A DNA stretch of 42,578 bases from Vermiphilus sp. (lineage in GTDB: Bacteria > Ratteibacteria > UBA8468 > B48-G9 > DTJG01), in contig DYKA01000003.1 of NCBI GenBank assembly GCA_020722805.1, forward strand, positions 1-42,578, given 5' to 3'. Below the pieces are notes generated by a model. It searched no databases. It was not told the origin of the DNA and worked only from the letters and a program-made list of their open reading frames with translations. Position 1 is the first letter of the stretch. Every line of letters starts with the position of its first letter. A program made the translations under genes and the position numbers. Below are positions 7,656 through 34,806 of the stretch, piece after piece.

Positions 7656-9079
7656 AAAGAAAGTCCTCATTCATTTTTCTTGTTCTTGCTTGTGGTCTTC
7701 TGCCTTGCTTCAGTTTTCCACCGTTTAAAATCTGGATTCTCGGATGGTTCGGGCTTGTGCCCCTTTTATTTCTATTTGAAGAAAAACACACTGTCCGGAA
7801 TTTTTTCACGGGATTGCTTGCCGGTTTTGTTTTTCATGCGTTTTTGCTGAACTGGATTTTTTCTGTGGCCGGATTTTTTTACCTGCTTCTGGCTTTCTAT
7901 CTGGCGATAAACTGGGCGATATTTTTCTCTCTTGTTTTTGCTCTGCCTGAAAAAACAATCGTTCCCGTATCAGCATGCCTCTGGTATTTTCTTGAGATTC
8001 TCAGAAGATTTGTATTAACTGGTTTTCCATGGCTGCCTTTTTCACTTTCACAGTGGAATAATCCAGCAATTGCAGGAACTGTTTCAATCTACGGCTCTGC
8101 CGGGTTATCCTGTTTGATTGTTGCATTCAACATTTCATTTTACAGGTTTCTTCGCCGCAGGGGAACCATTAGCATACCTGTAATTCTCATTATCATGATT
8201 GTTTCTTATGCTGTTTCAACAATTTTTGCAGAATACAGAGGAAAAACAAATTTTGTTAGTGTGGCAGCAATTCAGGGGAATACAGGATATTTTGGTCAGG
8301 CTCCGGAAGAATCATTTGAAAAATACAGGAAACTTACTGATTCAATCAGATGGAATCCTGAAATTGTGGTGTGGCCAGAAAGCAGTTATCCCTCAATCAT
8401 TGATTGGAATGGCAGCGTAATTAAATATCTGAAAAGAAAATCCTTTGACTTTCCGGTTCTTGTCGGAACGATGAGCGAGGAAAATGGCAATATTTATAAC
8501 AGCGCCTGTCTTTTCAATAAGGGCAAGATTTTCAGATATCACAAGACACACCTTGTTCCTTTTGGCGAATATGTTCCGGCAAGGCATCTATCCTTGATAA
8601 GAAAAATATATCTCAGATTTGCTGGTGGAATGCCTGAAATAAAACCTGGCTCTGTCATCAAAACATTTGAAATTAATGATAAAAACTTTTCAGCACTTAT
8701 CTGTTTTGAAAATATATTTCCCGAAATTACAGCGGAATCTGCAAGAAACCAATCTGAATTTTTTGTTGTTATCACAAATGATTCATGGTATGGAAATTCC
8801 TTTGGTCCGTATCAGCATTTTGCTCATAATATTTTTCGGGCGTGCGAAACAGGAAGATATGTTATTCAGGTATCAACAACGGGTTTAACAGGCATTGTAT
8901 CAAATTCAGGAAGATTCAATGTTTTTCAAAAAAATGGAAAAGAACTCTTTGTTGATGGTATTATGAATATCAGGATGCAGAAAACCAATGATGTGAGAAC
9001 AATTTACACGGCACTCGGTGAAATCGGCATCTCAATGATATTTTTGATTATTACGGGGGTTTGTCTATGCAGAGATTAA
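7652..9079 (+). CDS. lnt: apolipoprotein N-acyltransferase
   Basis: Multi-TM N-terminus plus nitrilase domain: VVWPESSYP, YHKTHLVPFGEYVP, ALICFENIFPE. Confidence 0.9.
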   Translation: MKRKSSFIFLVLACGLLPCFSFPPFKIWILGWFGLVPLLFLFEEKHTVRNFFTGLLAGFVFHAFLLNWIFSVAGFFYLLLAFYLAINWAIFFSLVFALPEKTIVPVSACLWYFLEILRRFVLTGFPWLPFSLSQWNNPAIAGTVSIYGSAGLSCLIVAFNISFYRFLRRRGTISIPVILIIMIVSYAVSTIFAEYRGKTNFVSVAAIQGNTGYFGQAPEESFEKYRKLTDSIRWNPEIVVWPESSYPSIIDWNGSVIKYLKRKSFDFPVLVGTMSEENGNIYNSACLFNKGKIFRYHKTHLVPFGEYVPARHLSLIRKIYLRFAGGMPEIKPGSVIKTFEINDKNFSALICFENIFPEITAESARNQSEFFVVITNDSWYGNSFGPYQHFAHNIFRACETGRYVIQVSTTGLTGIVSNSGRFNVFQKNGKELFVDGIMNIRMQKTNDVRTIYTALGEIGISMIFLIITGVCLCRD

Positions 9080-30593: not shown

Positions 30594-30622
30594 AGTATAC
30601 AAAATTTCTCAGTTTCAGTCAA
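30594..30622 (-). promoter_or_regulatory. sigma70-like promoter TTGACT-N17-TATACT, 6 nt before ATG 30587
   Basis: Reverse-strand motif reading; no Shine-Dalgarno between -10 and ATG. Confidence 0.5.
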
Positions 30623-30761
30623 AACAAAAATCAGGCAACAGGGTACCGCCATCATAGTAAATATTTTCAAAAATGCTTTAATCTGTTATAATTTCCACAA
30701 GCAGTCAGATTACTGAATTCTCTGTACCATCTGTCAGGAAAAACGGATAACAAAAGAAGCC

Positions 30762-32015
30762 ATGAACTCAAGGGAAAGAATAAGAGCAAGCATCTCTCAT
30801 AAGCAACCTGATAGGGTTCCTTTGGACCTGGGAGGAACCGCGGTTTCAGGAATCTCAGCATTCACCCTTGTGAAATTGAAAAAAGCGCTCGGTCTTAAAA
30901 CACCTGTGATGATTGATGAACCGTTTCAGATACTCGGCAGGGTTGATGACGAATTGAGAAAGATTCTTGGCATAGATACAGTTCCATTAAATGCAAGGAA
31001 AAACTTCTTTGGGTTTGAAAACGAAAACTGGAAGAAATGGACTGCGCCCGACGGAACAAAGTTTCTTGTCCCGGAGAAATTTAACACAACCATGGACAGT
31101 AATGGAAATGTTTACCTCTATCCCGAGGGTGATATAACTGTCTCCCCATCAGGAAAATTACCCGCTTCTGGCTTTTACTTTGACGCAATTGTAAGACAAA
31201 AGCCAATCAATGAGACATCTCTCAATCCTTCCGATAATGTGGATATCCAGGTCTTGAGCGATGAAGATCTCAGATATTACGAAATGGAGTCCATCCGCAT
31301 TTTCAAAGAAACAGAATTCTCAATTATCGGGAATTTCGGCGGTACGTCGTTCGGGGATATTGCCCTTGTTCCTGCACCATTTTTGAAAAATCCGAAGGGG
31401 ATAAGGGATATTGAAGAATGGTATATATCAACGATAACAAGACGCAACTACATATATGAAGTTTTCTCAAGACAGTGCGAAATCGCTCTGAAAAATCTAA
31501 AAATGATTTTTCAGGCAGTGGATAACAGGATTGATGTTATTTTTGTTTCCGGAACTGATTTTGGAACTCAGAATTCCCAGTTCATATCAGTTCAGACATA
31601 TCGCGAACTGTACAAACCATTTCATAGCAAAGTGAATGACTGGATACATAAAAACACTGCATGGAAAACGTTTATTCACTCATGTGGTTCTATTGAACCA
31701 TTCATAAATGACTTTATTGAGGCGGGTTTTGATATTCGTAATCCTGTTCAGTGTTCAGCAAAAAACATGGACCCTGTTGACCTGAAACGGAAATACGGAG
31801 AAAAAATTTGCTTCTGGGGTGGCGGCATTGACACACAAAAGACGCTTCCTTTCGGAACCCCTGAACAGGTGAGACAGGAAGTGAAAAATCGCCTGAAGAT
31901 ATTTTCTGAAGGCAGCGGTTATGTGTTCAATACAATTCACAACATCCAGGCAAAAACATCTGTTGAAAACATTCTTGCAATGTTTGAAGCAGTAAAACAG
32001 TTTAACAATTCCTGA
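30762..32015 (+). CDS. uroporphyrinogen-decarboxylase-like (URO-D/MtaA superfamily) protein
   Basis: SRERIRASISHKQPDRVPLDLGG start, FIHSCGSIEPFINDFIEAGFDIRNPVQ, CFWGGGIDTQKTLPFGTPEQV. Confidence 0.82.
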   Translation: MNSRERIRASISHKQPDRVPLDLGGTAVSGISAFTLVKLKKALGLKTPVMIDEPFQILGRVDDELRKILGIDTVPLNARKNFFGFENENWKKWTAPDGTKFLVPEKFNTTMDSNGNVYLYPEGDITVSPSGKLPASGFYFDAIVRQKPINETSLNPSDNVDIQVLSDEDLRYYEMESIRIFKETEFSIIGNFGGTSFGDIALVPAPFLKNPKGIRDIEEWYISTITRRNYIYEVFSRQCEIALKNLKMIFQAVDNRIDVIFVSGTDFGTQNSQFISVQTYRELYKPFHSKVNDWIHKNTAWKTFIHSCGSIEPFINDFIEAGFDIRNPVQCSAKNMDPVDLKRKYGEKICFWGGGIDTQKTLPFGTPEQVRQEVKNRLKIFSEGSGYVFNTIHNIQAKTSVENILAMFEAVKQFNNS

Positions 32016-32019
32016 TAAA

Positions 32020-33744
32020 ATGAAATATCCCGACATCTGGGGAGAAGGCATGATTTTCGCGTTCTCCGGCCTTGAAGGAGAAACCGACTGGTTTGCTCCG
32101 TTTATTGCGGGCACCACAGAAAAATTCGGGTCGCTCTGTTTCAGACTGAAAGATAACAGAACCTTACATTTCAGGGGTATGGAAGAACTGAAAGATGTTC
32201 GGCCAAAGGTTATCTGTTCCGATTTGATAGTTTTCAAAAATCCGGATGTCTCAATAATCTTTGTTGAAAAAGACAGAATACTCGGTCAGTACAACCCACA
32301 GTTTCCACCATCCATAACTTCAGAAGCAGCCAGGATTGAGCAGATCGGTAATGTTGTAGTGCGTTTATCGGATGACGGAATAAGCGCTCTTATACTTGAA
32401 AATGACAGGAAGGTCTTCTCACTCTCATATGACAGGGGGAACAAATACAACGCAATACAAAAGGCGAAGAGAACCATAACAGAAAAACATTGTGAGGATG
32501 AAATTTAGAAAAAAATCAGGTTCCTTGAAAAATTCAATCATGTTCGGTTTGATGATGAGGTTGAAGAAAAAACCTATCTGAAAGCAGTCTCCGTCATGAA
32601 GGTAAACGGTGAATCCGCACAGGGAAAAATCAAATCAATATGGACAACACCTGATAGATGGCCTCATAGAGATATGTGGTTCTGGGATTCAGCATTTCAT
32701 ACGTTTGGTAACCGCTATATCTCCGGTGATCTTGCTGAAAAAACAATTACCGCAGTACTGGACTGCCAAAGGGAAGATGGATTTATTTCTATCACAATGA
32801 ATCCCGAAAAAACCAGGGTATATGAGCATATTACCCAGCCACCTCTTTTTGCATGGGCTGCACTTGAACTTTTCAAAATCACAAAAAATTATGATTTCCT
32901 TGAATTTGTTTATAAAAAAATGAGCAAATACATTGAATGGCTTTATAAAAACAGAGACAATGATAGCGATGGATTACTTGAGTGGATGATAGATGAAAAT
33001 AGTGCATCAAAATGCGGTGAATGCGGGATGGACAATTCTCCGAGATTTGACAGTGTGAAACCAGCAGAAAATGTAGCAGTCATTGACCTGAATTGCTTTG
33101 CAATAAATGAAATAAGATGCCTCTCAAAAATATCAAGAATCCTGAAAATCAACGGGGACGCATCAGTCTGGGATAAAATGGCTGAAGAAAAAACCCTGCT
33201 GGTAAACAGGCATCTGTGGGACGAGCATGATGGCTTCTATTACGATAGAAAACAAAACGGGAGTTTCATCAGAATCAAGACACCAGCGTCATTCCTTCCT
33301 TTGTTTGCAGAAATTTCAGACAGGGTAAAAGCTAGAAGAATCATTGAAAAACTTATAAACCCGGAGATGTTCTGGACAGAATTGCCTTTGCCTTCTGTGT
33401 CAAAAGATGAACAAACATTCTGCAAAGATATGTGGAGGGGTGGAACATGGCTTAATTATAATTTCCTCGTTTATAATGGCTTGAAAAAGTATGGATTTGA
33501 GGATACTGCAAAAAATCTTCTGATAAAGACAAAAAAGGCAGTTGAAAAGTGGTACATTGAAAAGGGCTCTATATTTGAGTTCTACGATCCGGATAACAGG
33601 ATACCACCGAAGGAATTGCCAAGAAAGGATTGGCTTGGAACACGCGGCTGGTCAAGAACAATAACTGATTACCACTGGAGCGCAGCAATCTATGTTGCGA
33701 TCATCAATGAGTTGAAAAAAAATGACGGAACTACCATCTTTTGA
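32020..33744 (+). pseudogene. (alpha/alpha)6 glycoside-hydrolase-like protein (GH63/trehalase-like) interrupted by one in-frame TAG at 32506-32508
   Basis: ORFs 32020-32508 and 32596-33744 share one frame; the 29 codons between them are open (KKIRFLEKFNHVRFDDEVEEKTYLKAVSV). WPHRDMWFWDSAFH and TRGWSRTITDYHWSAAIY resemble GH63-type active-site regions. Confidence 0.7.
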
Positions 33745-34806
33745 ATTCAAAAAAAATTTCGTTGAAACAGTTGCAAGACACAGAAAGATCCAGACGGCAA
33801 GAAAAGGATGTCTGATATACACATTTCTTCCAGAAGAGGAGGAAATTGCAAACTCAATATCAATTCCGCCACTTGAGGAAATTGATTTTAGAAAGGATGT
33901 GCTCCTTCTTCCGAAACTTCTGTGCAATAGAGATGAAAAATTATACAGATATCGCTCTGACTATCCGGATGATTCAATTCCAGTATTGCCCCTGAGATAC
34001 GGCTCTCAGGCATATTTGCAGGTATGATTCTTGGCTCCATTAGGTTTGGCGCAAACACGTCATGGATAGAACCAGTGGGAAAAACCATAGATGAAACAAT
34101 AAACTTCCCGTGGGAAAAGGATAATCAGTTCATTGATATCGCACTGACGGGTCTTGAATACGCAGTAAAACGTCTGAAAAACAAGTGTTATGTCTATCTT
34201 TCAGGTTATCACTCGCCACTTGAACTCGCATTTATCCTGAGGGGTTCTGATTTCTTTCTTGACATCTATAATTGTCCTGAAAAGGTCCACGTACTGATCA
34301 GGAGATGTGATGAAGCACTGAAATGGGTATATCAGATAATTGAAAAAAATGTAAAGAGCGAGAATAATGGAATTATTGCAGGATATCTGTGGATGGGAAA
34401 AGGGCTTCCTTTTTTAAGCGATGATGCAGCAGGGCTTCTTTCTCCGCAGCACTATAGAGAATTTGGGGTACCTTATACAGATGAGGTTTTCAGAAGGTTT
34501 GGGGGTGGATTTCTTCATCTACATACTCAAGCATATCATCAAATGGAAAATGTATCAAACATGGGACACCTGATAATGTATAACTGGAGACCCGATCCCG
34601 GTACATCTGAAGCCATTACTATTCTTGATACACTTATTGATGGGGCAAGAAGAAAAATTGTGCTGATAATAGCAGACGCAGAATCAATAAGAAGAAATAT
34701 TTTACTTTTGGCGCAGGGCAGATTTTTTCTTCTCTGTTACTGCAGAAATCGCATAGAACAGGAGTCCATCGTTAACTTTGTTAGGGAGAAAGCACCAATA
34801 GAATAA
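33722..34806 (+). pseudogene. second URO-D-like protein split by a -1 frameshift between 33973 and 34027
   Basis: ORF 33722-34027 ends ...LPLRYGSQ and ORF 34024-34806 continues GIFAGMILGSIRFG in the -1 frame; C-terminal part has URO-D-like DDAAGLLSPQHYREFGVPYTDEVFRRFGGGFLHLHT. Confidence 0.7.

Follow-up and report, generated by a model that had tools for sequence, protein, structure and literature searches.

A glycoside hydrolase gene interrupted by a single in-frame TAG in an uncultured bacterium: probable recent decay of a two-gene unit

A glycoside hydrolase (GH) gene that is open from end to end except for one TAG codon raises the question of whether that codon is read as an amino acid, divides one protein into two, is an artefact of assembly or marks a gene in decay. 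The case considered here lies in a stretch of 42,578 nucleotides, referred to below as the window, which is contig C166 of a genome (G000) of 1.79 Mb in 182 contigs, 92% complete. An earlier note on this DNA had offered pseudogenisation, read-through, a strain variant and an assembly error as unranked options; the comparisons described below favour the first and disfavour read-through.

The interrupted gene and its homologues

The gene and its internal stop are located as follows:

32020..33744, forward strand: interrupted GH63/MGH1-like glycoside hydrolase gene (frame translation, Pfam, homologues, structure model)
32506..32508, forward strand: in-frame TAG at codon 163, within the linker helix predicted for residues 158-170 (translation, same-genus alignment, structure model)

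Translation gives one frame of 574 codons from 32020 to 33744, in which the TAG at 32506-32508 is the sole internal stop and the 29 codons that follow it (32509-32595) are open. The C-terminal part of the product matches the Pfam family PF22422 (MGH1-like_GH) with 165 bits, against a cut-off of 27, and a Pfam search with the N-terminal part of about 160 residues returned no family match. Membership of the GH63/MGH1-like hydrolases is also indicated by Foldseek, which matches YgjK and TtMGH, and among solved structures the closest in sequence and fold are the mannosylglycerate hydrolase of Thermus (4wva), YgjK of E. coli (3w7s) and the glucosylglycerate hydrolase of Mycolicibacterium (5ohc). 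The catalytic (alpha/alpha)6 domain is like that of these enzymes in both respects, but the GH described here has an N-terminal domain of its own and is encoded by an interrupted gene. D338 and E520 are invariant in the homologue alignment (A1); E520 aligns with E727 of YgjK, and D338 is, from what is known of GH63 enzymes, the expected catalytic Asp. The catalytic part is well conserved and retains both the Asp and the Glu that are expected to be catalytic.

In a structure model based on seven homologues, with a mean pLDDT of 72, beta strands lie at residues 12-138, linker helices at 142-170 and catalytic-domain helices from 180 onward, which corresponds to an N-terminal beta domain with its linker helices over residues ~1-170 and an (alpha/alpha)6-like domain over ~180-567. 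Codon 163 is thus predicted to fall inside a linker helix between the two domains, where the earlier note, speaking of a beta-sandwich-like and an (alpha/alpha)6-like part, had also placed it. Such a position would suit a gene fission, in which the two parts are made separately and then reassemble. As had been remarked before, there is no good site at which translation could restart: none of the 29 codons after the TAG is ATG, GTG or TTG, and the first ATG, at 32596, lies within a helix of the catalytic domain and has no Shine-Dalgarno (SD) site (dG -1.3). Every homologue, moreover, is one polypeptide, and we regard fission as very unlikely.

All six of the nearest homologues (35-60% identity) are encoded as one uninterrupted ORF, these being four from the same genus (G002, G003, G005 and G007; 58-60% identity over ~570 residues) and the more distant copies in G030 (47%) and G013 (35%). 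Together with the translation, these single ORFs bear out the earlier description of one frame split by a single TAG with 29 open codons beyond it, and the homologue alignment that had been named as a check finds one polypeptide throughout. At the TAG column the same-genus homologues carry K, R, N and K, a variation which gives no pointer to a special residue; Gln never occurs there, which speaks against the route from CAG to TAG that the earlier note had suggested. Among 80 GTDB homologues, a set that overlaps with the relatives' genomes above, 79 have no interior stop. The exception, in a Clostridia MAG from roe-deer gut (L103, contig JAFTME010000004.1), is interrupted by an in-frame TAG at another position, codon 131 of the hydrolase homologue. 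The TGA flagged in the G007 homologue sits only at the true end of that gene and was set aside as a lesion. No close copy of the GH was found in G004 (93% complete), so the genus can do without this gene.

The reading of TAG in this genome

Functional read-through or suppression of the TAG, by means of pyrrolysine, a suppressor tRNA or a reassigned code, would yield a full-length enzyme, and it would fit a frame that is open on both sides of the codon and conserved downstream of it. Searches of G000 (92% complete) with the PylS and PylC families, in each of which one of 14 controls passes, gave nothing over the cut-off, and typing of the 34 tRNAs detected in this genome revealed no CTA anticodon. 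The search for pyl genes or a suppressor that had been named as a check thus speaks against read-through, and a pyrrolysine protein was rejected as a candidate. TAG terminates nine of 84 conserved genes (those whose ends match relatives within five residues), and across ~138 gene places of G000 compared with congeners no other convincing gene contains an interior TAG. A TAG-reassigned code was rejected on these two counts, the first of which agrees with the earlier view that genome-wide reassignment is unlikely, and a literature search found no report of a changed code in Omnitrophota. A programmed read-through gene was likewise rejected, as the in-frame stop is not conserved among homologues, none of which has a stop at the TAG column.

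On the side of read-through is the finding that RF1 was not detected in a search of G000. Its loss looked real at first, but all except one of seven congeners have RF1, and a contig of G000 (C20, L220) carries the two genes that relatives have ahead of RF1 and breaks off right after them; the gene that follows RF1 in relatives is also missing from G000. Since the contig ends there and the following gene is missing as well, the absence of RF1 is, on this comparison of contigs, most simply an assembly gap rather than a loss, and the idea of a loss was dropped. Read-through of the TAG would, in addition, leave unrescued the frameshifted partner gene described below. We therefore consider functional read-through to be extremely unlikely, and it is less likely still that a suppressor tRNA encoded outside the assembled sequence reads the TAG efficiently to give a full-length enzyme.

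The partner gene and the region upstream

The gene that follows the GH is also damaged:

33722..34806, forward strand: URO-D-like gene, split into two ORFs in different frames (one ORF of ~360 aa in relatives)
34004..34008, forward strand: frameshift site in the URO-D-like gene (sequence comparison)

In the same-genus relatives the URO-D-like gene lies directly 3' of the GH in a single frame of ~360 codons; three of the copies compared are complete, and that of G005 consists only of the start, cut by a contig end. In G000 there are five bases at 34004-34008 where the relatives have three, a 2-nt frameshift with the appearance of a CT/TC dinucleotide duplication, and the gene is split into ORFs at 33722-34027 and 34024-34806. 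The SD site at its start is also weaker in G000 (dG -3.2) than in relatives (-5.6 to -8.6). The statement in the earlier note that there is no other damage therefore stands inside the GH gene and fails for the unit, in which this frameshift, an additional gene in front of the GH and the absence of the GH's ribosome-binding site had been overlooked. The last two concern the following features:

30603..30761, forward strand: upstream region with TATAAT (30687-30692), like the TATAAT near the GH start in relatives
30762..32015, forward strand: additional URO-D/MtaA-like gene encoding 417 aa, with the pilin-head gene on one side and the GH on the other (PF01208; synteny of relatives)
31998..32019, forward strand: region before the GH start codon, with no SD site (dG +0.6)

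The proteins encoded upstream (30762-32015) and downstream of the GH both match PF01208, a likeness to the MtaA/CmuA-like URO-D superfamily, but neither reaches the cut-off of a named methyltransferase family, and both are putative members only. Matches to this superfamily often number 13-33 per genome of 1.1-2.7 Mb in the class, with ~20 in G000. The upstream gene is missing at that position in G002, G003, G005 and G007 and in the outgroup G030; its best match, at 58% identity, is in another family of the class, compared with only ~35% within the genus, and it was probably acquired. By eye, the 58% relative (L275) adjoins a run of putative sugar isomerase/oxidoreductase genes and lies downstream of it.

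In the four same-genus relatives the GH start lies ~92-264 bp from a divergent pilin-head gene, and the interval between them holds a TATAAT and an SD site. In G000 this gap is filled by the URO-D/MtaA-like gene, in front of which the TATAAT-bearing region now lies, and the SD value at the GH start is +0.6, as against -5.4 to -8.7 in the relatives. Two points weigh here against an expression defect, and hence against decay: a clear SD site is also missing at roughly half of the window genes, and coupled translation could replace the lost site, since the GH start lies 4 nt past the stop codon of the upstream gene.

Probable recent decay and its main rival

Lesions were surveyed over ~579 kb of G000 stretches, comprising the ~138 gene places mentioned above. 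Beyond the GH and URO-D-like genes, one other convincing lesion was found, a likely 1-nt frameshift on contig C2 (L276, ~8859-8877), where a run of A counts 7 bases and its equivalent in a relative 8; this may reflect decay, phase variation or an assembly error. A third frameshift, on contig C44, falls in an antisense reading and was rejected as probably non-genic. The two lesions in the window are confined to the GH and its URO-D-like partner, and the other comparable window genes (244 to 39400) look intact, aligning end to end, or nearly so, with those of relatives. With one other lesion per ~138 gene places, it is unlikely that two adjacent partner genes were hit independently.

The main rival to decay is that the population is mostly intact and that the assembled sequence is in error, or represents a minority allele, at one of the sites or at both. 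The lesions are known from one metagenome-type assembly, which is fragmented (182 contigs, 92% complete), the GH is otherwise well conserved, and both a single-base change and a change in a dinucleotide repeat are possible consensus faults. Such faults would, however, have had to produce two independent-looking lesions in adjacent partners while sparing the rest of the compared window genes, and a consensus error offers no explanation for the coinciding extra gene and lost SD site. We consider this rival unlikely.

Branch rates were taken from four-taxon trees, with the G000 branch expressed as a fraction of tree length. This fraction is 0.27 both for the concatenated intact genes and for the URO-D-like gene, and 0.29 for the catalytic part of the GH. 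For the N-terminal part of the GH it is 0.40 (four taxa, 162 residues), a value that none of 60 random equal-length blocks of the intact genes reaches. On the G000 branch the N-terminal part thus appears to evolve faster and shows slight signs of relaxation. Since the rates of the GH C-terminal part and the URO-D-like gene match those of the intact genes, any relaxation, like the lesions themselves, is recent.

The explanation that we consider probable is that a dispensable operon of the GH and URO-D-like genes has recently decayed after an insertion upstream of it. Three changes taken together speak for decay of the unit, namely the partner frameshift, the additional gene in front of the GH and the absence of a ribosome-binding site at the GH start; all three, like the TAG itself and the intact state of the relatives, can be read directly from the sequences. 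The GH is interrupted where its orthologues are intact, both in the six nearest homologues and in 79 of the 80 from GTDB, and signs of lost constraint are seen in the partner frameshift, the lost SD site and the faster N-terminal part, the catalytic part not being accelerated. Weighing against decay, in addition to the single assembly and the points on translation given above, are the conservation of the catalytic part, including D338 and E520, and the origin of the faster N-terminal rate in a comparison of four taxa and 162 residues. With the catalytic part so well conserved, loss of GH function, if real, would be very recent.

We infer the order of events, and with it the loss of expression and function, as follows. 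The ancestral state would have been that of related Omnitrophota, with intact, adjacent GH and URO-D-like genes and one promoter region. A URO-D/MtaA-family gene would then have landed between the promoter region and the GH start, where the ribosome-binding site of the GH is now gone; the poorly translated GH would next have been cut short by the nonsense mutation at codon 163 (TAG), and the URO-D-like partner would have gained the 2-nt frameshift. The only likely product of the GH gene would be its first 162 residues, an inert fragment. The loss may have been tolerated through redundancy, in that G000 has a second MGH1-like gene, 30% identical to the GH, on contig C180, as well as its ~20 URO-D matches.

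The unit shares with nonsense and frameshift pseudogenes of bacterial accessory operons an interrupted ORF, intact relatives, a lesion in a partner gene and a lost expression signal, and differs from them in having very few lesions, known from one assembly. It looks like ordinary recent gene decay and not like a novel reading of the genetic code. The locus thereby serves as a caution, in that a lone in-frame TAG in an uncultured bacterium suggests recoding where comparison with congeners points to decay of an accessory unit, and the absence of RF1 (prfA) from G000 at a contig break should similarly not be taken as loss of RF1. On a small scale, it also illustrates how the loss of an operon may be preceded by insertion of a gene between promoter and start codon.
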